Below are positions 20,553-44,923 of a stretch of DNA of 64,000 nt, piece after piece. The notes beneath the pieces are model-generated. The model searched no databases. It was given only the letters and a program-made list of their open reading frames with translations, and was not told the DNA's origin. Both the position numbers and the translations under genes were made by a program. The first letter of the stretch is position 1. Each line of letters opens with the position of its first letter. Source of the DNA: Spelaeicoccus albus (lineage in GTDB: Bacteria > Actinomycetota > Actinomycetes > Actinomycetales > Brevibacteriaceae); assembly GCF_013409065.1 (NCBI RefSeq), contig NZ_JACBZP010000001.1, forward strand, positions 1,612,001 through 1,676,000, written 5' to 3'.

Positions 20553-21272
20553 TCACCGTTTCCAGTATGCGGCGGCGTGAAGGTCGTCGCGCGCAACGCC
20601 CCAGGCTGACGTCGCATGGTGTCGGAGCTCGCGGGTCACTCCTGCCTCAGCGGCGATCCAGACATTGCAGCGGACCGCCGGTACCGGAAGCTCGCGCATC
20701 AGCGGTAAAAGTTCGGCGTCGCTTTCGGTCCAGTGCACGTCGACCCCGTCGCGCAGAGACAGTAGCGACCGATCGCCCGGTGGCACGGCCGCGAGAACCG
20801 TCGCCGTCCACTCATCAGGCAGCGATTCGACGATGGCGGCGATCGCCGGCATTGACGACGAATCGCCAATGAAGACGGCGTGAGACAGACAGTTGTCCTG
20901 CGCCCACTCGTGCCGAAAGCCATATAGCGTAACGACGTCGCCTCGCTCAGTACGACCGAGCCACTCCTTGATGAGGCCGGGATGCAGGACGACGTCGAAG
21001 TCTAGGGTTGCGGCCGAGGCGTTGAATCTGCGGACGGTGAGTGCACGCATTCGAAAGACTCGAGTGATCACGTTGGATTCGTGACGAGGGATGAGCCCCA
21101 GCTTGAACGCATCGGCGGGGGCGATCGGGCGTTGCTGATCGAAATTGTCACTTGTGAGCCGAACGCGCATGAAGTTTGTGGTCACGAGCCGGGCGGACTC
21201 GAAGGCGACGTCGTAATGGCTCATCGAATGACTACGCGCCGTCTCACGCAGCGCCTTGCGGAGCATCGTCAT
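20553..21272 (-). CDS. Siderophore-interacting protein / ferric-siderophore reductase
   Basis: 239 residues. The family (ViuB/YqjH-like) uses flavin and NAD(P)H to release iron from imported siderophores. Visible parts are the FAD-binding barrel (VTRVFRMRALTVRRF, LDFDVVLHPGLIKEWL) and the SIP domain with VFIGDSSSMPAIAAIVESLP, VLAAVPPGD and WIAAEAGVTRELRHH. The iron box lies about 27 nt upstream, so iron-dependent repression is likely. Start codon choice among M1, M3 and M17 is uncertain; M1 keeps the box at promoter distance. Confidence 0.9.
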   Translation of the reverse strand: MTMLRKALRETARSHSMSHYDVAFESARLVTTNFMRVRLTSDNFDQQRPIAPADAFKLGLIPRHESNVITRVFRMRALTVRRFNASAATLDFDVVLHPGLIKEWLGRTERGDVVTLYGFRHEWAQDNCLSHAVFIGDSSSMPAIAAIVESLPDEWTATVLAAVPPGDRSLLSLRDGVDVHWTESDAELLPLMRELPVPAVRCNVWIAAEAGVTRELRHHATSAWGVARDDLHAAAYWKR

Positions 21273-21298: not shown

Positions 21299-21317
21299 TA
21301 AGGTGAGCCTACCCTAA
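21299..21317. promoter_or_regulatory. DtxR/IdeR-type iron box
   Basis: On the minus strand TTAGGGTAGGCTCACCTTA matches the DtxR/IdeR consensus at 16 of 19 positions. It sits upstream of the siderophore-interacting protein gene, and its right end overlaps the last codons of the LysR gene. With iron, DtxR/IdeR would bind and repress. Confidence 0.8.
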
Positions 21318-33435: not shown

Positions 33436-34275
33436 ATGACAAAGTTCGCCGGGGCCGACGATCTTCGCGCTGCCGAGTTCGTCCACACGAGCCTTCGCGG
33501 TGCCCGGTTCACCGGAGTCGATCTGTCCGAAGCCGTGATACGCGAAGCGGACTTGTGCAAGGTGCGGATGCGCGCCGTCGACGTCCGCGATTCCGAGATC
33601 GATGCCCCGTGGCTGTTCGAGGCCGAGAACTACCTGCTCGTCAATGGCGTGGACGTCGTTCCATTGGTTGACGCCGAGCTGAACCGGCGCTTTCCCGGTC
33701 GCGTGGAACGGCATGCCGACGACCCGGCAGGCTTGCGTTCGGCGTGGTCCGCGCTCGAACGCACCTGGTCGGCCACCCTTGAGCGGGTTCAAACGATGCC
33801 GACGGGCACTGTCGATATTTCGATCGACGGCGAGTGGTCATTTGCGCAAACTCTGCGGCATCTGATCATGGCGACCGATACGTGGCTGGGACGGGCCATT
33901 CTCGAAAAAGACCAGCCGTACCACCCGATCGGTCAGCCGGATTCCAGCTACGAGGACGACGGTCGGTCACCCTTTCAAACGGAGCGTCCGACATACTCCG
34001 ATGTGCTCGATGTGCGGGCGGGTCGAGTCGCAATGATGCGCGACTTCCTCGCCGCCGCCACTGCCGACGAGCTGGCTGCTCCTCGAAAGAACCCGCACGC
34101 GCCGGAACATGAGGAAACGGTGCTGTCGTGCCTGCACACGATCCTCGAGGAGGAGTGGGAGCACCATCGCTATGCGGTTCGCGATCTCGACGCGATCGAC
34201 GTGCGGACAGGCGTGCGGACAGGCGCGCGGATCGCCGCATCGGAACGACGCCGTAGGCCGGACGACGTCAGGTAG
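33436..34275 (+). CDS. DinB-like protein with N-terminal pentapeptide-type segment
   Basis: 279 residues, ATG with GAGGAG five nt upstream. The first 60 residues (LRAAEFVHTSLRGARFTGVDLSEAVIREADL) show the A(D/N)LXX rhythm of a short pentapeptide-repeat helix. The remainder matches the DinB four-helix-bundle superfamily (SFAQTLRHLIMATDTWLGRAIL, and HTILEEEWEHHRYAVRDLD), whose metal-binding His residues fit H146-type and C-terminal EEEWEHHR positions. The biochemical role is unknown; DinB relatives include bacillithiol/mycothiol transferases. It ends overlapping the convergent MFS gene by eight bases. Confidence 0.75.
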   Translation: MTKFAGADDLRAAEFVHTSLRGARFTGVDLSEAVIREADLCKVRMRAVDVRDSEIDAPWLFEAENYLLVNGVDVVPLVDAELNRRFPGRVERHADDPAGLRSAWSALERTWSATLERVQTMPTGTVDISIDGEWSFAQTLRHLIMATDTWLGRAILEKDQPYHPIGQPDSSYEDDGRSPFQTERPTYSDVLDVRAGRVAMMRDFLAAATADELAAPRKNPHAPEHEETVLSCLHTILEEEWEHHRYAVRDLDAIDVRTGVRTGARIAASERRRRPDDVR

Positions 34276-35584
34276 CGATCTCTTCCAGCTCCTGCCCGGG
34301 CTTGATGTTCGGAAGCCAGAACGTCGCAATGCCCTGCCCGCATCCCAAGACCACTCCGATCACGATCCAGGTGACCGTCAGGTTCGTCGTTGACGACAGC
34401 ACCGTCCAGAACAGGCTGCCGAGCATCAGTCCACCCACGAACATGGCGCCCATCCATCCGATGGCGATGGCCCGCACCCGGGTGGGGAAGCTTTCTCCTT
34501 GATAGGCGTAGCCGGCACCCGACCAGGTTCCGTTCGTCGCTTGGTAGATGAGGAAGAAGACGATGGCCACCCAGACGTAGTTCATGATCAGTAACAGAGC
34601 GAGGTTCAGCGGGCCGACGAGTACTCCTGAGATGACAAGCACATTGCGGCGTCCGAATTTCTCGCCGAGTACCCCGCCAAGCAGATAGAAGAAGAAACCG
34701 ATGCCGCCGCAAAAGAGCAGCAGGACTGCGGCTTGGTCCGACGTCCAGCCCTTTTCCGCCGTCAGCCAGTACGCGATGTAGAGGTTTGTGGCGACGTACG
34801 ACGTCGCATAAAAAAGCCAGGTGACCGTGAGCCTGGTGAGAACCGAGCGGACGGGGCCGGGCGTGGCAAAGAGCTGCCGGACGGACCCCTTCTTCAGATC
34901 GTCGGCGTTCATGGGACGCTCCGCGCTCAAGCGCGCGACTTCCGGCTGATCGTTTGCCGCCACCGCCTTCCGCATGGCTTTCAGGTGGAGGTAGCGCTCC
35001 GATTCGCGGACCTTGTATCGGCCGATTGCCACCAGGACGAGCGGAATGACTCCGAAGAGATAGACGGTCCGCCAGCCAAGCCCGCCGACGAGGAGGTACA
35101 GGCCGGATGCCATGAAGACACCGATCGGCCATCCGCCTTGGACAATGGAATACAAGAACCCGCGATGCTTCGACGGAACCTGCTCATTGACCAGAGTGAT
35201 CGAGACGGCGAGCTCGGCTTGAGCGAACCCGGAGGCCAATGCGCGGACGAGTGCAAGCTGCCAGAACTCCTGAACGAAGTACGTCAACCCGGTGAAAAGG
35301 GCGGCCATGATGAGGCAGAACATCCACATCCATTTGCGGCCTTTGCGATCCATGCCCCAGCCGACGAATAATGCGATGACGAATTCAGCCCCGAAGACGA
35401 TGAATCCCAGGACGCCCAAGATGCCGGAAGACAGGTTGAAGTCGTCGGCGATGGCCGGCATCGTCAGCGTCAACAGGTTGGAATCGTATGAGGCGAGCGA
35501 CCATCCGAGTACGGCGATGATCACCAGGTAGATCGTGTAGCGGCGGTCTTTTTCCTCTTGCGTAGCGAGCGAGCGGTCGGACAT
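34268..35584 (-). CDS. MFS transporter (aromatic acid/sugar-type)
   Basis: 438 residues, 12 helices. GWGMDRKGRKWMWMFCLIM is the conserved loop 2-3, VNEQVPSKHRGFLYSIVQGGWPIG lies in loop 4-5, and LGEKFGRRNVLVISG in the second half. These fit the MFS branch that moves small organic acids. It lies 63 nt downstream of a cyclase-family hydrolase on the same strand, so the pair may import and process one compound. ATG with GAAAGG six nt upstream. Confidence 0.8.
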   Translation of the reverse strand: MSDRSLATQEEKDRRYTIYLVIIAVLGWSLASYDSNLLTLTMPAIADDFNLSSGILGVLGFIVFGAEFVIALFVGWGMDRKGRKWMWMFCLIMAALFTGLTYFVQEFWQLALVRALASGFAQAELAVSITLVNEQVPSKHRGFLYSIVQGGWPIGVFMASGLYLLVGGLGWRTVYLFGVIPLVLVAIGRYKVRESERYLHLKAMRKAVAANDQPEVARLSAERPMNADDLKKGSVRQLFATPGPVRSVLTRLTVTWLFYATSYVATNLYIAYWLTAEKGWTSDQAAVLLLFCGGIGFFFYLLGGVLGEKFGRRNVLVISGVLVGPLNLALLLIMNYVWVAIVFFLIYQATNGTWSGAGYAYQGESFPTRVRAIAIGWMGAMFVGGLMLGSLFWTVLSSTTNLTVTWIVIGVVLGCGQGIATFWLPNIKPGQELEEIAT

Positions 35585-35647
35585 AGCGGCCTTTCAGTTA
35601 ATTCTTTCGTCGCCGCTGCATCGCGGCGCCGTCGATTACCTGCCCGG

Positions 35648-36445
35648 TCAGAGCCAGGCGAATGCGCGGCCCGGCGCACCGGTACCGCGTGCAACTTTCA
35701 GCGGAGCGAAGCAGAACATGGCTCCGCGGACGGGAAGTTCTTTCAAATTTCCCAATGCCTCGATATAGGCCACCCTGGCCGCGAGACCCAGATGGTGCAC
35801 GCCGGCGCCGTCATGGGACGAACCCATGCTGGCGCCGTCCGTCCCAACACATCGGACGCCGCGATCCATCAACAAGCGGATCGCTTCTTCGTCCGGGGCC
35901 GGCCATCCCGGCCCCTTCCGCGTGACGAGCGGGTCGTGGCAATAGGCGAAGCCATTGGGGCCGGCGACATAGTGCTTGTCCCAATTTGTCCGAAATAGGA
36001 CGACGTCATTCGGCTCGATCGCTCCGTTCTCGGTCTCCCATGCCGTCAGGAAGTCCGCGGTGATCATCGGCGAGATACCTGGGCCGGCCCCCGGAAGATC
36101 CTCCGGGATGTCGACGACGACGGCAGGACCCATGAGTTGGTCGAGGGGGATCTGCTCAACAGTGACTGAGCCGACGTCGGCCGCGTGCGGCAATCCGGTA
36201 TCCGGCTCCGGGATGAAATGTGCCGGAGCATCCACGTGAGTTCCGGTGTGCTCGTCGATGAGCAGCCAGCGCGTTTGATAGGGGCCGGTCGCGCTTTTCA
36301 ACGGCGAGGCCTGACTGTCGACGTTTGCGAAGTAATTGAACGTCTTCTGCTGATACGGCATGTGCTTGGCCCAGGCAGCAGGCAACTCTTCGGCAAGGAG
36401 CAACGTCAGATCAATGATCCGGCGTGGTCGGGCGGTTTCCGCCAT
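35648..36445 (-). CDS. Cyclase-family metal hydrolase (kynurenine formamidase-like)
   Basis: 265 residues from ATG 36445 (AAAGG about 11 nt upstream); the frame opens earlier, at 36520. The metal-binding motif H-x-G-T-H-x-D appears as HTGTHVDAPAHF, the hallmark of the cyclase family that includes bacterial kynurenine formamidase and isatin hydrolase. Other family segments are DVVLFRTNWDKHY and GVRCVGTDGASM. It probably opens an amide or lactam ring of a substrate brought in by the adjoining MFS carrier. No kynureninase or tryptophan dioxygenase is nearby, so kynurenine is not favoured. Confidence 0.8.
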   Translation of the reverse strand: MAETARPRRIIDLTLLLAEELPAAWAKHMPYQQKTFNYFANVDSQASPLKSATGPYQTRWLLIDEHTGTHVDAPAHFIPEPDTGLPHAADVGSVTVEQIPLDQLMGPAVVVDIPEDLPGAGPGISPMITADFLTAWETENGAIEPNDVVLFRTNWDKHYVAGPNGFAYCHDPLVTRKGPGWPAPDEEAIRLLMDRGVRCVGTDGASMGSSHDGAGVHHLGLAARVAYIEALGNLKELPVRGAMFCFAPLKVARGTGAPGRAFAWL

Positions 36446-36712: not shown

Positions 36713-36744
36713 TATCTTGATATCAAGATAAATTGTGGGATACT
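36713..36744 (+). promoter_or_regulatory. Promoter with 18-bp perfect palindrome (MarR-type operator candidate)
   Basis: TATCTTGATATCAAGATA (36713-36730) is a perfect 18-bp palindrome of the ATCTTGAT-TCAAGAT kind bound by MarR-family regulators. It overlaps a -35 TTGATA (36717-36722), and GATACT (36739-36744) follows at a 16-nt spacing as -10. The first gene starts at 36807. No MarR gene is in the window, so the regulator is encoded elsewhere. Confidence 0.65.
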
Positions 36745-36806
36745 AGAGGTAAGGCATACCTAAGAGGTGATGCTGCAGGCGGACTTTGCTCCGAAAGGGG
36801 AACGAC

Positions 36807-38183
36807 ATGACCGAAGTACACGAGTTGGCTGCTTTCGTAGACGAGGCACAATTCGAATCCATCAGCCCCGAAGCGCTCGAACAGCTGAAGATCCGGGTGC
36901 TCGACACCATTGGAGTGGCGATCGGCGCGCTGGACGCCGAGCCGATGACGGCGATCCGCGGCCTCATGGACGATCTGGGCGGCACCGAGATGGCCACACT
37001 GATCGGCGGCGGACGCACCACTCCCGAACGCGCAGCATTCTTCAACAGCGCTCTCAGCAGATATCTCGATTTCATGGACGCGTACCTGGCGGCAGGGGAG
37101 ACGGGACATCCGTCCGACAACCTCGGTGCCGTGCTCGCCGCTGCCGAGACCGCCAACGCATCCGGCGCGGAATTCCTCACTGCGCTCGCCGTGGCCTATC
37201 AGGTGCAAACGCGGCTGTCGGATGTCGCTCCGGTTCGCGCCAAAGGATTCGACCACACCACGCAGGGCGCTTTCGCTGCAGCCGCATCGGCGGCCAAGGC
37301 CTTCGGCCTGTCTGCGGAACAGACCGCGAACGCCATCGCGATGGCCGGCACGGCCAACGTCGCACTACGAGTGACGCGCACCGGCAATCTTTCTCATTGG
37401 AAGGGCCTGGCCTACCCGCACGTGTCCAAGGAGGGCACCTTTGCCGCAATGCTGGCATCCCGCGGAATCACCGGGCCGGAAGAGGTCTTCGAGGGAAACA
37501 AGGGCTTCAAGGACTCCGTTGCCGGCGACTTCGACATCGACTGGTCCGCCGAGAACCTGGAAAGCGTCCTGCGCACCATCATCAAAAAACACAACGCCGA
37601 GATCCACTCGCAATCGGCGCTCGACGCAGCACTCGACATCCGGGCGCAAGACGGATTCGACGCGGCCGAGATCGAATCGATCAAGCTCACGACCTTCGAT
37701 GTGGCCTACTCCATCATCGGCGGCGGCGAAGAAGGCGACAAACGCACCGTCCGCACGAAGGAAGAAGCCGACCACTCGCTGCCGTGGATGCTCGCCGTCA
37801 CGCTGCTCGACGGGCGGCTCGGTCCCGAACAATACGCGCACGAGCGCGTCGTCGCAGCCGATGTCCAACAGCTCATGACGCGCGTGACAATCGCGCCGGA
37901 CGACGCATATTCGGCTCGCTTCCCGAACGAGATGCCCGCCGAGCTCGAGATCGTCCTGCGCGACGGCACCCGCTTTCACGCCGAACGCGCCGCCTATGAC
38001 GGCTTTCACTCGCAGCCGCTCGATTGGGAGGGCGCCCGCGCCAAGTTCGATGCTGTCACGGCGCCGTTCGCGTCAGAGCAATTGCGCGATGAGATCGCCG
38101 ACATCATCCATCGACTCGACCGGGAACCCGTCACGGCGCTCACTGCAGCGCTCGCCAGGGTCAGCCGGACACGCAACGCTTGA
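36807..38183 (+). CDS. MmgE/PrpD family protein
   Basis: 458 residues from ATG 36807 with GAAAGGGGA five nt upstream. The family includes 2-methylcitrate dehydratase and cis-aconitate decarboxylase. Visible family parts are DTIGVAIGALDAEP, HPSDNLGAVLAAAETANASGAEFLTALAVAYQVQ, KGFDHTTQGAFAAAASAAKAFGLS and IIGGGEEGDKRTVRTKEEADHSLPW, the last matching the conserved (R/K)TREDADHSLPY region. First gene of an operon with a ComA-like enzyme and a nitrilase. Methylcitrate genes (prpC, prpB) are absent, so a different organic acid is likely. Confidence 0.85.
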   Translation: MTEVHELAAFVDEAQFESISPEALEQLKIRVLDTIGVAIGALDAEPMTAIRGLMDDLGGTEMATLIGGGRTTPERAAFFNSALSRYLDFMDAYLAAGETGHPSDNLGAVLAAAETANASGAEFLTALAVAYQVQTRLSDVAPVRAKGFDHTTQGAFAAAASAAKAFGLSAEQTANAIAMAGTANVALRVTRTGNLSHWKGLAYPHVSKEGTFAAMLASRGITGPEEVFEGNKGFKDSVAGDFDIDWSAENLESVLRTIIKKHNAEIHSQSALDAALDIRAQDGFDAAEIESIKLTTFDVAYSIIGGGEEGDKRTVRTKEEADHSLPWMLAVTLLDGRLGPEQYAHERVVAADVQQLMTRVTIAPDDAYSARFPNEMPAELEIVLRDGTRFHAERAAYDGFHSQPLDWEGARAKFDAVTAPFASEQLRDEIADIIHRLDREPVTALTAALARVSRTRNA

Positions 38184-38224
38184 TGGCCACCCGCCATCGC
38201 CCCCAGTGATGGCCGCCGGCCATC
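38182..38224. repeat. Two tandem small hairpins between PrpD-like and ComA-like genes
   Basis: GATGGC/GCCATC (38182-38198) and GATGGCC/GGCCATC (38208-38224) form two adjacent short stem-loops in the 64-nt gap. They could stabilise or segment the operon mRNA. No T-run follows, so they are not classical terminators. Confidence 0.5.
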
Positions 38225-38247
38225 GCACAAGAAAAAGGAGACAGATC

Positions 38248-39084
38248 ATGTCCAACGAAATTCCGTATGACGTTTCGTTCAACTTCATTCCGCGGGCACA
38301 CCGCCCTGCCAAACCGCGCACCCGCGGCATCACCGAAATCCGCGCGCCGTATTACAGCACCTTCGGTACCCGGCACCTCGAGGACGTCTTCGACGTCGCC
38401 GGCCAGTGGGTCGACGGCATCAAGTGGGCGGGCGGCTCGTTCGCCCTGTTGCCGAGCGAACAGGTTCGCGCGTTCAGCGATATCGCCCACAAGAACGACG
38501 CCTATGTCTCGTCCGGCGGCTGGATCGAAACGATCCTGCGCTACGGCGACGACGCGGTCGACCACTACCTGAAGGAGGCCAAGGAATCCGGATTCGACGT
38601 CATCGAGATCTCGACCGGGTTCATCATGCTGCCGACGTCGGGCCTGGTCCGGCTCGTCGAGAAGGTCACGAAGGCCGGTTTGAAGGCCAAGCCCGAGCTG
38701 GGCATCCAAATCGGCTCCGGCGGCGATTCCGGCGAGGCCGAGCTCGCGGCCGAAAGCAAGAAGGACATCGGCGACCTCGTCGATCGGGCACAGAAATGCC
38801 TGGACGCCGGCGCCTCGATCGTGATGATCGAGTCCGAGGGCATCACCGAGAACGTCACCGAGTGGAACACCGGAGCCGCCGCCTCGATCATCAACGGCGT
38901 CGGCCTGGAAAACGTGATGTTCGAAGCCGCCGACGGTCCCGTCTTCGAGTGGTACATCAAGAACTACGGCAACGAGGTCAACCTCTTCGTCGACCACAGT
39001 CAGATCCTGCAACTCGAGGGCCTGCGCCAGAACATCTGGGGCAATAAGAGCACGTGGGGCAGGGTCATCAACCCGGCCGCCTGA
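38248..39084 (+). CDS. ComA-family (phosphosulfolactate synthase-like) TIM-barrel protein
   Basis: 278 residues from ATG 38248 with AAGGAG upstream. ComA joins sulfite to phosphoenolpyruvate to make phosphosulfolactate in coenzyme M synthesis and in Bacillus sulfolactate formation. Family segments seen are GITEIRAPYYSTFGTRHLED, VDGIKWAGGSFALLP, AYVSSGGWIETIL, GFDVIEISTGF and IVMIESEGITENV. No other sulfolactate or coenzyme M gene is nearby; partners are a PrpD-like protein and a nitrilase. The real reaction may be a related PEP or enolate addition and cannot be fixed from sequence. Confidence 0.75.
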   Translation: MSNEIPYDVSFNFIPRAHRPAKPRTRGITEIRAPYYSTFGTRHLEDVFDVAGQWVDGIKWAGGSFALLPSEQVRAFSDIAHKNDAYVSSGGWIETILRYGDDAVDHYLKEAKESGFDVIEISTGFIMLPTSGLVRLVEKVTKAGLKAKPELGIQIGSGGDSGEAELAAESKKDIGDLVDRAQKCLDAGASIVMIESEGITENVTEWNTGAAASIINGVGLENVMFEAADGPVFEWYIKNYGNEVNLFVDHSQILQLEGLRQNIWGNKSTWGRVINPAA

Positions 39085-39088
39085 CACA

Positions 39089-40030
39089 ATGAGTTCTATG
39101 ACTCGTGTGACGGTTGCAGCGGTTCAAGCCGGATCGGTCCTCTTCGACACCCCGGCCACACTCCTCAAGGCGGAGCGGCTGATCCGCGAGGCCGCTGCAA
39201 CCGGCGCCACGCTCGTCGTCCTCCCCGAAGCCTTTCTCGGCGGCTATCCGAAGGGGCTGGACTTCGGTATCACGGTCGGCGGGCGAGCGCCGGAGGGCCG
39301 AGACGTGTTCCGGCGGTACGCTCAGTCGGCCGTCCGGCTCCCCGGACCGGAAACCGACCATCTCGCCGAACTCAGCACCGAATTGGGTGTCATGATCGTG
39401 GGCGGCGTGATCGAGCGCGACGGCGGCACGTTGTATTGCACCGCCGTCTTCATCGCTCCGGGTCGCGGACTTGTCGCAAAGCACCGCAAACTCATGCCGA
39501 CCGCCGCCGAACGTTATCTCTGGGGGCAAGGCGACGGGTCCACGCTGCCGGCCGTGCCCTGCGACGCCGGCGTGTTGGGAGCGGCCATCTGCTGGGAGAA
39601 CTACATGCCGTTGCTTCGGCAGACCATGTACTCCAAAGGCGTCGAGATCTGGTGCGCTCCAACTGTCGACGAACGCGAGCAATGGCAGTCCACAATGCGC
39701 CACATCGCCCTCGAAGGCCGATGCTTCGTGATCGCTGCGTGCCAGTTCCTCACCAGGGACGGCATGCCGGACGACGTGCATCCGGTGCAGGGCGACGAAC
39801 CCGGCACGGTGCTGATCAGCGGCGGCTCCGTGATCATCTCACCGCTGGGAGAGGTGCTGGCCGGGCCCGAACGCGGCGGGGAAACAGTGCTCACGGCCGA
39901 ACTCGATCTCGACGATCTGGACAGGTCGAAGTTCGACTTCGATGCCGCCGGCCACTACGCCCGTCCCGACGTCTTTACCCTCACCGTCGACGAATCGCCG
40001 AAGCACCCGGTCGCCCGGCACGACCGTTAA
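39089..40030 (+). CDS. Nitrilase (carbon-nitrogen hydrolase)
   Basis: 313 residues, ATG five bases after the ComA-like stop. The catalytic triad is E47 (LPEAF), K134 (KHRK) and C168 in CWENYMPLLR; CWEN is the form found in true nitrilases, which turn nitriles into acids, and not in amidase branches. Length fits aliphatic or arylacetonitrilase enzymes. As last gene of the operon it may supply or remove a carboxyl or nitrile group on the substrate of the PrpD-like and ComA-like enzymes. Confidence 0.85.
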   Translation: MSSMTRVTVAAVQAGSVLFDTPATLLKAERLIREAAATGATLVVLPEAFLGGYPKGLDFGITVGGRAPEGRDVFRRYAQSAVRLPGPETDHLAELSTELGVMIVGGVIERDGGTLYCTAVFIAPGRGLVAKHRKLMPTAAERYLWGQGDGSTLPAVPCDAGVLGAAICWENYMPLLRQTMYSKGVEIWCAPTVDEREQWQSTMRHIALEGRCFVIAACQFLTRDGMPDDVHPVQGDEPGTVLISGGSVIISPLGEVLAGPERGGETVLTAELDLDDLDRSKFDFDAAGHYARPDVFTLTVDESPKHPVARHDR

Positions 40031-41589: not shown

Positions 41590-42744
41590 ATGATCACCTC
41601 CGGGTACGCCTTCGTCGGCGTATTACTGGGCCTGGCCGCCCTCATCGTCTGGTTTGAAAAACGCAAGGCCTGGAAGTTATTCAAATACGTTCCGGGATTC
41701 GTGCTGCTGTACATCGGCGCAGCACTGCTCAACACGTTTGGCGCCTTCGGCGACTCGAAAGAGATCGAGAACGTCGGCGGCAGCATCCGGGACCTGCTGC
41801 TGCCGGCCATGATTTTGTTGTTCTTGTTCAAATGCGACTTGCGCAAAATCGTGAAGCTCGGCCCCAAGCTGCTCATCACCTTCTTCATGACCACCGTCAG
41901 TATGATCGTGGCGTTCACCGCGGTCTTCTTCGTCTTCCAAGGACTCGTCGGCGACGAAGCCTGGAAGGGCGTGGGCGCGCTTTCGGCCTCGTGGACGGGC
42001 GGCTCGGCCAATATGGTCGCCGTCCAGGGCATCCTGCACGCGCCGCAGGACATTTTCGGTTACGTCCTCATCGTCGACACGCTGATGTACTCGATTTGGC
42101 TGCTGATCATGTTCGGCTCGGTGGCGTGGTCCGACAAGTTCAACCGCTGGACCAAGGCGGACGTCACCTATCTGAACGCTCACACCGGGTCGGAGGCCGG
42201 CGAGGCGGACAAGCCGATGGATCTGGCGTCGCTGCTCTCGCTGATCGGCTTCTCGATTATGATCTCGGCCGCCGCGACCTGGATCGGCACGATGCTGCCC
42301 GATATCGGCATCGTCATCAATTCGACCACCTGGACGATCTTAATAGTCAGCGTGCTCGGTCTCGTCCTGGCCACGACTCCGATCGGCAAGACCGCCGGTT
42401 CGGCGGACGTCGCGCAAATCATGCTCTACATGATCATCGGGATCATCGCCTCCGGGTCCGATTTCACCTCGATCGCCGATGCCCCGGCATACCTGTTGAT
42501 CGGAGCCCTCGTGCTTGTCGTTCACGCAGGGCTCATGACGATCTACGCGAAATTGACGAAGACCGAACTGTTCAGCCTGGCCGTGGCCAGCACGGCACAC
42601 GTCGGCGGCGTCGCCTCGGCGCCCGTCGTGGCCGGCGCGTTCAACCGCCAGCTCGTGCCGGTCGGCGTCCTGTTCGCCCTCATCGGCGCGTTCATGGGCA
42701 CAATCGTCGGCCTGTTGATCGCCCAGATCCTGGCGGTGATCTGA
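41590..42744 (+). CDS. DUF819 family membrane protein (YjcL-like), putative murein-peptide permease
   Basis: 384 residues, about 10 helices. Two similar halves can be seen, each with a glycine/serine-rich stretch (ALSASWTGGSANMVAVQGIL and VASTAHVGGVASAPVVAGAFN), the DUF819 hallmark. No transport activity is firmly known to me. It is immediately followed by a dipeptide epimerase (stop/start TGATG) and a YkfC-like endopeptidase, so import of murein tripeptides or dipeptides is a reasonable guess. ATG with AAGGGAG upstream. Confidence 0.75.
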   Translation: MITSGYAFVGVLLGLAALIVWFEKRKAWKLFKYVPGFVLLYIGAALLNTFGAFGDSKEIENVGGSIRDLLLPAMILLFLFKCDLRKIVKLGPKLLITFFMTTVSMIVAFTAVFFVFQGLVGDEAWKGVGALSASWTGGSANMVAVQGILHAPQDIFGYVLIVDTLMYSIWLLIMFGSVAWSDKFNRWTKADVTYLNAHTGSEAGEADKPMDLASLLSLIGFSIMISAAATWIGTMLPDIGIVINSTTWTILIVSVLGLVLATTPIGKTAGSADVAQIMLYMIIGIIASGSDFTSIADAPAYLLIGALVLVVHAGLMTIYAKLTKTELFSLAVASTAHVGGVASAPVVAGAFNRQLVPVGVLFALIGAFMGTIVGLLIAQILAVI

Positions 42745-43871
42745 TGCCCGTGGCACGCATCCGCACCCATGTCGAAGCGGCTGCGCTCACCCGACCGTTC
42801 ATCACATCCAGGCGCCGGGTCGATACCGTGGCAACCGTCGTGGTCGAGGTCGAACTCGCCGACGGCACGGTGGGGATCGGCGCCGCTTCGGAGAACCCGG
42901 CGGTCACGGGCGAGACGGTGGACTCCATCACGGCGCTCGTCACGGGGCAAATCGCGGACGCCGTCACGGGGTCGCCGGCGTCGCTGGCGGACCTGGCGCG
43001 CGCCGTCGGGGCATCGGCGGTCGGTAACGCCTCAGCCAAGGCGGCTGTCGACATGGCCATTCACGACGCGCACGCCCGCGCGCTCGGCGTCCCGCTCACC
43101 ACGTTGCTGGGTGGCGACGTCCGCGCCGCAATGGCGGGCGACATGACCGTCAGCCTCGACGAGCCCGACGTGATGGCCCGGCACGCGGCCGACGCCGCGG
43201 AGTCCGGATTCACCTGCATCAAGGTCAAGCTCGGCAACGACACCGCCCGTGACCTCGACCGGCTGCGAGCGGTGTGCGACGCGGCGCCGCACGCCCGGCT
43301 GCGCTTGGACGCAAACCAGGGATGGAACGCAAAGGACGCGGTGAGAGTGATCCGCCGAATCGAGGACGCCGACCTACCCGTCGACTTGGTCGAGCAGCCC
43401 GTGCCCAAATGGGATCTCGACGGGCTCGCGGCGGTCACGCGCGCCGCCGGGCTGCCCATCATGGCGGATGAGTCCCTTGCGAGCCCGCACGATGCGTTCG
43501 AACTGGCCCGTCGCGGCGCTGCGGACTTGTTCAACATCAAGCTCGCCAAGTGCGGCGGCATCCGGCAGGCACTGCAGATCGCGGATATCGCCGAAGCCGC
43601 CGGAATCGAATGCATGGTCGGCGCCATGATGGAACCTCGGATCGCCATCACTGCCGCCGCCCACGTCGCGGCGGCACATCCCAACATCACCGTGATCGAC
43701 CTCGACTCGGCCGACTGGTTTGCCGACTCCGGCACCGGCGGAAGCGTCACCGTCGACGGGGTTCTGCACCTCTGCGGCGGCCCCGGTCTCGGCATCGACC
43801 CCGCCCGCAACGCCGACAACGGACACCAAACACCCCGGCCCCACTCCCGCACCGAAAGGAAAGAACAATGA
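42744..43871 (+). CDS. ykfB: Dipeptide epimerase (L-Ala-D/L-Glu epimerase-like, enolase superfamily)
   Basis: 375 residues. Enolase-superfamily catalytic set is intact: K160 and K162 (CIKVKLG), metal ligands D189 (RLDANQGW), E217 (VEQPV) and D242 (ADES), and the second base lysine K266 or K269 (NIKLAKCGG). The DLD pair at 319-321 is the substrate-amine motif of dipeptide epimerases. It inverts D-Glu in L-Ala-D-Glu, allowing murein peptide breakdown. The start overlaps the DUF819 stop and the stop overlaps the endopeptidase start (ATGA), giving the same gene pair as Bacillus ykfB-ykfC. The symbol is by analogy. Confidence 0.85.
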   Translation: MPVARIRTHVEAAALTRPFITSRRRVDTVATVVVEVELADGTVGIGAASENPAVTGETVDSITALVTGQIADAVTGSPASLADLARAVGASAVGNASAKAAVDMAIHDAHARALGVPLTTLLGGDVRAAMAGDMTVSLDEPDVMARHAADAAESGFTCIKVKLGNDTARDLDRLRAVCDAAPHARLRLDANQGWNAKDAVRVIRRIEDADLPVDLVEQPVPKWDLDGLAAVTRAAGLPIMADESLASPHDAFELARRGAADLFNIKLAKCGGIRQALQIADIAEAAGIECMVGAMMEPRIAITAAAHVAAAHPNITVIDLDSADWFADSGTGGSVTVDGVLHLCGGPGLGIDPARNADNGHQTPRPHSRTERKEQ

Positions 43872-44923
43872 AGTCACGCTTTCGCTCCCGCACCGTGATC
43901 GGCGCCGCATTGGTCACCGCGCTGCTTCTGCCGGTTGGGGCTACGACCGCGGCCGCCCAATCGCCGAAGACCGCCGGAGCACACGGCGGAATCGAAGCCG
44001 GCGACACTGCATTCGTCGACGTGTCGGTGGCGACTCTGTGGGTGGGGCCGCGCATGACCCGGTCGATCGACAAACCGTCGACGACCAATCCGGTCGACCT
44101 GGACGCGTGGAACCGGTCCATGGAGGATACGCAAACCCGCCGTTGGTTGACCGGAAAACTCGAAACCCAGGCGTCGTACGGCGCAAAGGTCACGGTACTG
44201 GGAATCGACGGCTCGTGGGCCCACGTTGCCGTGGCCGGCCAAAAAACGCCGCGGAACGACCGCGGCTACCCCGGCTGGGTGCCGGTCCGCCAGCTGGTGA
44301 AGAACGACGCATTTTCCGAACGGGTCAAGACGAGCGATCGCGCCGTCGTGACGGCCAAGAAGACCTGGCTGACGAAGAAGGCGTCCGGCGAGCACCGCAT
44401 GGTGCGGATCGGCTTCAACACGAAGCTGCCGGTGCTCGACCGGGAAAGCAGTGCCGTCCGCGTGGCCACGCCCGACGGGAAGAAAGCGTGGGTGGACTCC
44501 GACTCCGTCGCGGTCTACGCGCCCGGTCAACAGCCGCCCGCGCCCACGGGCGCCGATCTCGTGCGCACCGGCAAGAAGTTTCTCGGCTTGCGATATCTCT
44601 GGGCCGGAGTCTCCGCATGGGGGTTCGACTGCTCGGGCTTCACGTCGTCGATCTATCGCGCGCACGGAATCGCCATTCCGCGCGATGCCGGCGCCCAGGC
44701 CGAGGCGGCGAACGGCAGGCCCGTCGACAAAAACCACCTGAAGCCCGGCGATCTGCTCTTCTTCGCCCAGCCCGGCGGCACCGGGGCGGTGCACCACGTC
44801 GGCATGTACATCGGCGGCGGCCGGATGATCCACGCCCCGAATGCGTCGACCCGGGTGCAGATCGTCGATTGGCGGCAGTGGGACACCTCGAACGAATTTG
44901 CCGGCGCTCAGCGATTCCTCTAA
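43868..44923 (+). CDS. ykfC: NlpC/P60 gamma-D-glutamyl-L-diamino acid endopeptidase (YkfC-like)
   Basis: 351 residues. A signal-type N-terminus (ALVTALLLPVGATTAAAQ) suggests export. Two bacterial SH3 domains follow, with the YkfC-specific start VSVATLWVGPRM, NPVDLDAWNRSM and GKLETQASYG. The C-terminal NlpC/P60 domain has catalytic C255 (FDCSGF), H310 (VHHVGMY) and H322 (IHAPN). YkfC cuts after D-Glu in peptides with a free N-terminal L-Ala, releasing L-Ala-D-Glu for the epimerase encoded just upstream. A secreted form would need the dipeptide to be imported, a job proposed for the DUF819 protein. Confidence 0.9.
   Translation: MKSRFRSRTVIGAALVTALLLPVGATTAAAQSPKTAGAHGGIEAGDTAFVDVSVATLWVGPRMTRSIDKPSTTNPVDLDAWNRSMEDTQTRRWLTGKLETQASYGAKVTVLGIDGSWAHVAVAGQKTPRNDRGYPGWVPVRQLVKNDAFSERVKTSDRAVVTAKKTWLTKKASGEHRMVRIGFNTKLPVLDRESSAVRVATPDGKKAWVDSDSVAVYAPGQQPPAPTGADLVRTGKKFLGLRYLWAGVSAWGFDCSGFTSSIYRAHGIAIPRDAGAQAEAANGRPVDKNHLKPGDLLFFAQPGGTGAVHHVGMYIGGGRMIHAPNASTRVQIVDWRQWDTSNEFAGAQRFL

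Follow-up and report, generated by a model that had tools for sequence, protein, structure and literature searches.

A conserved MmgE/PrpD and ComA-like gene pair of Spelaeicoccus albus with predicted TamR and DtxR/IdeR sites: a candidate module for citrate-type acids

Which acid is handled by an MmgE/PrpD-family enzyme and a ComA-like enzyme encoded in one operon, and when is the operon expressed? The question arises from 64,000 nucleotides of the Spelaeicoccus albus genome (assembly GCF_013409065.1, contig NZ_JACBZP010000001.1, positions 1,612,001 to 1,676,000), called the window here. The two genes (the pair) and a nitrilase gene stand in tandem on the forward strand behind a perfect palindrome of 18 base pairs (bp) (Table 1). 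This three-gene operon, with the palindrome lying over the −35 element, had been proposed in a preliminary description of the locus, and it was borne out by gene calls and a motif scan. The comparisons reported below suggest that the pair is probably an iron-starvation, aconitate-responsive module acting on citrate-type acids.

The conserved pair and its proteins

Loci encoding a relative of the ComA-like protein were collected from other species (80 loci, 54–90% identity to the window protein). Both genes of the pair are present at 74 of the 80 loci, at almost all of them side by side and in unchanged order. The nitrilase gene and the divergent cyclase and major facilitator superfamily (MFS) genes of the window have no match at any of the 80 loci. 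The trio, whose conservation in other genomes the preliminary description had set as its own test, is absent at all of them, and only the MmgE/PrpD and ComA-like genes are kept. Transporters common to the loci of relatives, another suggestion of the preliminary description, are not conserved beside the pair, and no other recurrent neighbour family was detected next to it at the 80 loci beyond local synteny. In seven further members of the bacterial family, fetched separately, the pair is present and no nitrilase gene lies beside it. Plasmids from Methylosinus, Methylocystis, Salinibacter and haloarchaea also carry the pair. Its two genes are separated by about 2.8–3.5 kilobases (kb) in two Halorussus plasmids, which still places them near each other. 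Judged by gene content and order, the MmgE/PrpD and ComA-like genes are a conserved two-enzyme module, not a trio. In the literature searched, we found no paper linking phosphosulfolactate synthase with PrpD, and none describing these two genes as a unit that is conserved across different phyla.

Some loci show deviations. Several small genes lie between the two genes in the Halorussus plasmid clusters (L254 2892–7828 and L257 2135–7828). At L059, L065, L072, L076 and L083, the ComA-like gene has no recognised adjacent MmgE/PrpD match, which may be due to contig ends or to real losses. In one Brevibacteriaceae genome (L095 and L096; G035 C15:45909–46658), the ComA-like gene is broken by internal stops, and the palindrome is intact.

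The nitrilase gene encodes a CN_hydrolase domain (207.6 bits) with the CWEN motif, and its nearest solved relative is the plant nitrilase NIT4 (6i00, 361 bits). The gene starts 4 bp past the stop codon of the ComA-like gene, and it is therefore probably co-transcribed with the pair here. Relatives of the nitrilase were detected in 18 of 297 genomes of the class, including the window's own. Outside the window genome, none was seen beside the pair within 1.5 kb on each side in these 297 genomes. According to this distribution, the nitrilase gene is a local, lineage-specific addition to the operon, accessory to the conserved module. A literature search combining nitrilase and MmgE returned nothing relevant.

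The PF02679 domain of the ComA-like protein was detected with 246 bits against a curated cut-off of 25.2. The NCBIfam arch_ComA equivalog model, made for the archaeal enzyme, gave 75.8 bits against a cut-off of 280. The best fold matches of the predicted model include the phosphosulfolactate synthases ComA (1qwg and 1u83), followed by 2-methylisocitrate lyases. In a phylum sample of PF02679 proteins, the pair-type group is 54–57% identical to the window protein, whereas the other members are 21–29% identical. A PrpD gene is adjacent at seven of the eight pair-type loci and at none of the 21 other PF02679 loci in this sample. The ComA-like protein is assigned by these comparisons to a separate PF02679 subfamily, of which we found no description in the literature searched.

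The pair-type and canonical proteins share the triose phosphate isomerase (TIM)-barrel fold, the acidic core (Glu120, Glu150, Glu195 and Glu226), Lys59 and Arg260. They differ at two positions. Lys137 and Arg170 (M. jannaschii ComA numbering) are present in all 20 canonical sequences, whereas Gln154 and Glu197 replace them in all 21 pair-type sequences. Lys137 and Arg170 presumably bind the anionic substrates of ComA. The ComA-like protein has neither residue, which makes an activity as phosphosulfolactate synthase improbable. The canonical ComA function is disfavoured by Gln154 and Glu197, and the same replacement weakens an organosulfonate-like substrate, as had been suggested for the operon. 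In our reading, the metal/enolate chemistry may be kept and the substrate or the nucleophile changed.

The predicted model of the MmgE/PrpD-like protein (predicted local distance difference test, pLDDT, 83) matches the folds of cis-aconitate decarboxylases and 2-methylcitrate dehydratases. The best sequence relative is the dehydratase PrpD (98 bits, compared with 67 bits for the decarboxylase). Asp88, His101, His150 and Lys199, shared with PrpD, do not vary within the subfamily, nor does the PrpD-type Glu265. As in PrpD, this glutamate is aligned with a histidine of cis-aconitate decarboxylase, which we take to be His277 of the mammalian enzyme. The identity as a cis-aconitate decarboxylase is weakened by this difference. 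The protein also differs from PrpD, falling far under all three NCBIfam PrpD equivalog cut-offs (148.8, 133.5 and 118.2 bits against 950, 575 and 458), and the window genome has a separate gene for a true PrpD at another place. The descriptions of the PrpD models mention aconitate hydratase activity, and a mechanism via a 1,4-dicarboxylate enolate has been proposed for the whole MmgE/PrpD family (2025 study, PMC12290011). The family has no iron–sulphur (Fe–S) cluster, and the protein is likely an Fe–S-free hydro-lyase of a tricarboxylate.

Two predicted repressor sites at the promoter

The palindrome overlaps the −35 element of a promoter-like match. Even when three mismatches are allowed, 0.00 copies of it would be expected by chance in the window. 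In the whole genome, five sites were found with up to three mismatches, and a control pattern gave none. Besides the operon's own, one copy lies between a Tam-like methyltransferase gene and the citrate synthase gene (one mismatch), one lies upstream of aconitase (two mismatches) and one lies upstream of the true 2-methylcitrate dehydratase gene prpD (three mismatches). The remaining site, TGTCTCTATATCAAGATA (L005 1501–1518, genome 2524722–2524739), has three mismatches and no aconitate-linked gene identified nearby, and it may be a chance match.

In genomes of the family, the motif occurs in exact or one-mismatch form nearly always twice per genome, before acn and prpD where checked. A third site is present in eight of the nine family genomes with the ComA-like gene versus none of the 28 without it (p = 2e-7, with related genomes counted as independent). 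In relatives at the order level, the box is located directly upstream of a MarR gene, as the preliminary description had proposed to look for, and in three of these genomes a trans-aconitate 2-methyltransferase gene (tam) diverges from the MarR gene, with the box between the two. The box was found at nine of the ten tam loci examined (up to three mismatches). A similar order of tamR and tam reportedly occurs in Streptomyces coelicolor. The likeness to the S. coelicolor regulon, drawn from the genes, goes further in this bacterial order: a single palindrome serves the genes for a TamR-type MarR protein, Tam, aconitase and citrate synthase. The pair and a second, iron-type box are extra here.

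The window genome encodes a TamR ortholog at 2000366–2000842, which shares 70% identity with the MarR protein linked to the box. The motif is present in 50 of 54 genomes with TamR versus none of five without it. Among pair-bearing genomes, 19 of the 21 that encode a good TamR ortholog have the box before the pair, compared with one of the 26 that do not (p = 6e-10, with the same counting of related genomes). According to a review citing Huang and Grove 2013, 2015 (PMC5487221), aconitase and further genes of the citric acid cycle are repressed by TamR, whose binding to DNA is attenuated by citrate and trans-aconitate. The palindrome is thus a predicted operator of TamR, a regulator of the MarR family that would bind here. 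The earlier proposal of a MarR-type palindrome, a regulator encoded elsewhere and ligand-controlled induction is supported by the ortholog and by the distribution of the motif. An operator common to aconitase, prpD, tam and citrate synthase points to citrate/aconitate metabolism. The string TCTTGACATCAAGA was not found in the literature searched.

In the aligned pair promoters, a second conserved sequence of the form TTAGGTAAGGCTTACCTAA is usually located 14–16 bp past the palindrome. In the window the gap is 14 bp, and the sequence stands directly after the −10 element. The preliminary description of this promoter was right about the palindrome and missed this second site. The sequence matches TWAGGTWAGSCTWACCTWA, which we take to be the DtxR/IdeR consensus. 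Sites printed for Corynebacterium glutamicum have the same form (PMC1382209). With up to five mismatches, the iron box was detected before 44 of 53 actinobacterial pairs, versus 0.24% of random 230-bp stretches from the same loci. With up to three mismatches, it was detected before 25 of the 53, versus a background of 0.07%. The other promoters with a TamR box have no iron box (0/30 for acn, 0/13 for prpD, 0/12 for tam, 0/7 for tamR and 0/4 for gltA; 0/66 in total). Both boxes occur in 28 of the 53 pair promoters; a further 16 have only the iron box, five have only the TamR box and four have neither.

The window genome encodes a DtxR homolog at 234084–234290 (94.6 bits). Eight other iron-box sites were found in this genome with up to three mismatches, and the reversed control pattern matched twice. 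Four of the eight adjoin genes for a siderophore-type binding protein, a siderophore-interacting protein, a lysine/ornithine N-monooxygenase and a FecCD permease, and therefore the pattern is meaningful in this genome. The operon's second site is accordingly named a predicted DtxR/IdeR iron box, at which DtxR would bind. In gamma- and betaproteobacteria, Fur-like boxes were found in pair promoters, for example CGTAACGAGAATCATTCTC at L061 and TGGAATGATAAACATTCTC at L055. With up to six mismatches, such a box precedes four of nine pairs against a background of 1.7% (p about 1e-5). We found no description of the joint TamR and iron-box control, or of its link to aconitase failure, in the literature searched. 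A siderophore-interacting protein gene within the window (20553–21272, reverse strand) has its own DtxR-type box, TAAGGTGAGCCTACCCTAA, at 21299–21317.

The iron control of the pair has been measured in C. glutamicum. According to PMC2627906, cg2796 (MmgE/PrpD) and cg2797 (ComA-like, 57% identical to a Rubrobacter protein) form a DtxR-repressed operon. The dtxR mutant comparison gives the cg2796 box GAAGGCAAGCCAAACTTAA with the values +5.3 and +1610 (Brune et al., PMC1382209), which we read as the array ratio and the reverse transcription–polymerase chain reaction value, respectively. Both genes are placed under DtxR in a low-pH study (PMC2807442), and a value of 11.01 is listed for cg2796 in a heme-tolerance study (PMC9491836). 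No function of cg2796 or cg2797 beyond homology is given in the available portions of these four papers. As far as the papers allow the comparison, the C. glutamicum operon is similar to the window operon in gene order, upstream iron box and DtxR repression. It differs in having no nitrilase, and in most of the sampled corynebacteria the pair promoter has the iron box only, without the TamR box. Both regulators, the protein folds and the DtxR control of cg2796 are already known. cg2796 is not mentioned in PMC12327846, nor is MmgE/PrpD in a C. diphtheriae DtxR paper, a C. pseudotuberculosis iron paper or a Brevibacterium iron paper. The C. glutamicum control genome gave no PF02679 match, although papers report the ComA-like cg2797 in ATCC 13032.

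Proposed function and alternatives

The regulation is well supported by the sequences; the reaction is our proposal. Iron starvation and oxidative stress cost aconitase its Fe–S cluster, which makes this enzyme a vulnerable step in aerobic metabolism. Fe–S-free substitutes exist for some other such enzymes, and to our knowledge no replacement of aconitase has been established. In many actinobacteria, the pair promoter would carry two repressor sites, TamR over the −35 element and DtxR/IdeR after the −10 element. When iron drops, DtxR/IdeR would leave the box just past the −10 element. When the Fe–S aconitase stalls, citrate and trans-aconitate would release TamR from the −35 element, and the module would be expressed. 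In the absence of TamR, iron control would often be kept, by a DtxR box in most sampled corynebacteria and some other actinobacteria, and by Fur-like boxes in several proteobacteria.

We tentatively favour a module whose substrate is a citrate/aconitate-type tricarboxylic acid and whose repression is lifted when the Fe–S aconitase fails, most likely serving as an iron-free aconitase bypass. The exact reaction is more doubtful: a two-protein, iron-free aconitase that converts citrate to cis-aconitate and then to isocitrate upon iron loss and build-up of citrate and aconitate is possible, and we hold it at a lower level of belief. The PrpD-like enzyme might dehydrate citrate to cis-aconitate without an Fe–S cluster. 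Relatives of the ComA-like enzyme add sulphite to the C=C bond of phosphoenolpyruvate (PEP); the ComA-like enzyme itself might hydrate cis-aconitate, yielding isocitrate. The nitrilase gene would have joined the operon in this lineage.

Several points weigh against this proposal. The order of the reactions and a hydration by the ComA-like fold have no precedent, and the confidence of the ComA-like model is moderate (pLDDT 74). The module is missing from most relatives that have the same TamR regulon. The significance of the co-occurrence tests is overstated, since related genomes were treated as independent. Neither box was found in four of the 53 actinobacterial pair promoters, and the patterns used gave no box in Thermalbibacter, Bradyrhizobium, Lentibacillus and others. 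The C. glutamicum pair genes also respond to low pH.

The strongest alternative, which we regard as unlikely, is a disposal module. Upon aconitase failure, leaked cis- or trans-aconitate would be removed in parallel to Tam; trans-aconitate inhibits aconitase. The MmgE/PrpD-like enzyme would decarboxylate, isomerise or hydrate the acid, the ComA-like enzyme would add water, sulphite or a thiol to the unsaturated product, and the resulting compound would be metabolised or excreted. Disposal is consistent with the regulator box common to the pair and tam, with the membership of cis-aconitate decarboxylase in the MmgE/PrpD family, and with the sampled Brevibacterium genomes, where Tam is found in none, the box is kept in 34 of 34 and the pair is present in some. 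However, Glu265 occupies the position of the decarboxylase histidine as in PrpD, the window genome has Tam in addition to the pair, and the iron box is found on the pair promoters and not on the tam promoters.

A second alternative, clearly less probable than disposal, is that the pair makes a small polycarboxylate metallophore or its precursor from citrate or aconitate, hence the iron regulation. Citrate-derived chelators are known in general, and the DtxR and Fur boxes are like those on siderophore genes. However, the pair has no conserved neighbour that encodes a synthetase, an exporter or an uptake protein, and the TamR control links the pair to aconitase, not to siderophores. The function as annotated, a phosphosulfolactate synthase making a sulphonate of the coenzyme M type from PEP and sulphite, is very improbable: the high Pfam ComA score and the fold of 1qwg and 1u83 favour it, but the Gln/Glu replacement, the low equivalog score and the low identity to canonical members stand against it. 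The three-enzyme pathway for a nitrile or an organosulphonate-like acid, proposed in the preliminary description with the nitrilase as an essential member, has the 4-bp spacing and a true nitrilase close to NIT4 in its favour, but it is the least credible and is not supported, as the nitrilase is absent beside the pair in the 80 relatives and the seven family members and the operator is that of aconitase, prpD, tam and citrate synthase.

If the reaction proposed for the aconitase bypass is true, the pair is an iron-free stand-in for the aconitase of the Krebs cycle. The module is widespread and occurs in C. glutamicum, a model organism, and two independent regulatory signals would place it at the point where aconitase fails. 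The results offer a functional lead for the orphan ComA-like subfamily across bacteria and haloarchaea, and suggest that many genes labelled 'phosphosulfolactate synthase' are misnamed.

Feature coordinates and neighbouring genes

Table 1. Features of the operon and its promoter (positions in the window)
Feature	Position	Strand	Description
MmgE/PrpD-family gene of the conserved pair	36807–38183	+	ATG start, MTEVHELAAF, 458 residues; Pfam PF03972/PF19305
ComA-like gene of the conserved pair	38248–39084	+	278 residues; PF02679, separate subfamily by sequence; fold 1qwg
NIT4-like nitrilase gene	39089–40030	+	Lineage-specific third operon member; CN_hydrolase with CWEN
Perfect palindrome	36713–36730	n/a	TATCTTGATATCAAGATA, 18 bp; predicted TamR (MarR family) operator over −35
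Promoter-like pair	36717–36744	+	−35 TTGATA, 16-bp spacer, −10 GATACT; consensus match only
DtxR/IdeR-type iron box	36745–36763	n/a	AGAGGTAAGGCATACCTAA, predicted; three mismatches to TWAGGTWAGSCTWACCTWA

The start of the MmgE/PrpD-family gene is placed at the ATG codon; a longer frame with a TTG codon from 36786 is less likely, because the relatives begin with MTEV. The divergent MFS transporter and cyclase-family (PF04199) genes at 34268–36445 use the intergenic region upstream of the operon. They were considered as members of the system and rejected, as they have no match near the 80 related loci. Downstream, at 41590–44923, a DUF819 membrane protein gene, an enolase-superfamily epimerase-like frame and an NlpC/P60-like frame stand in tandem, and may be a set for the recycling of peptidoglycan peptides.

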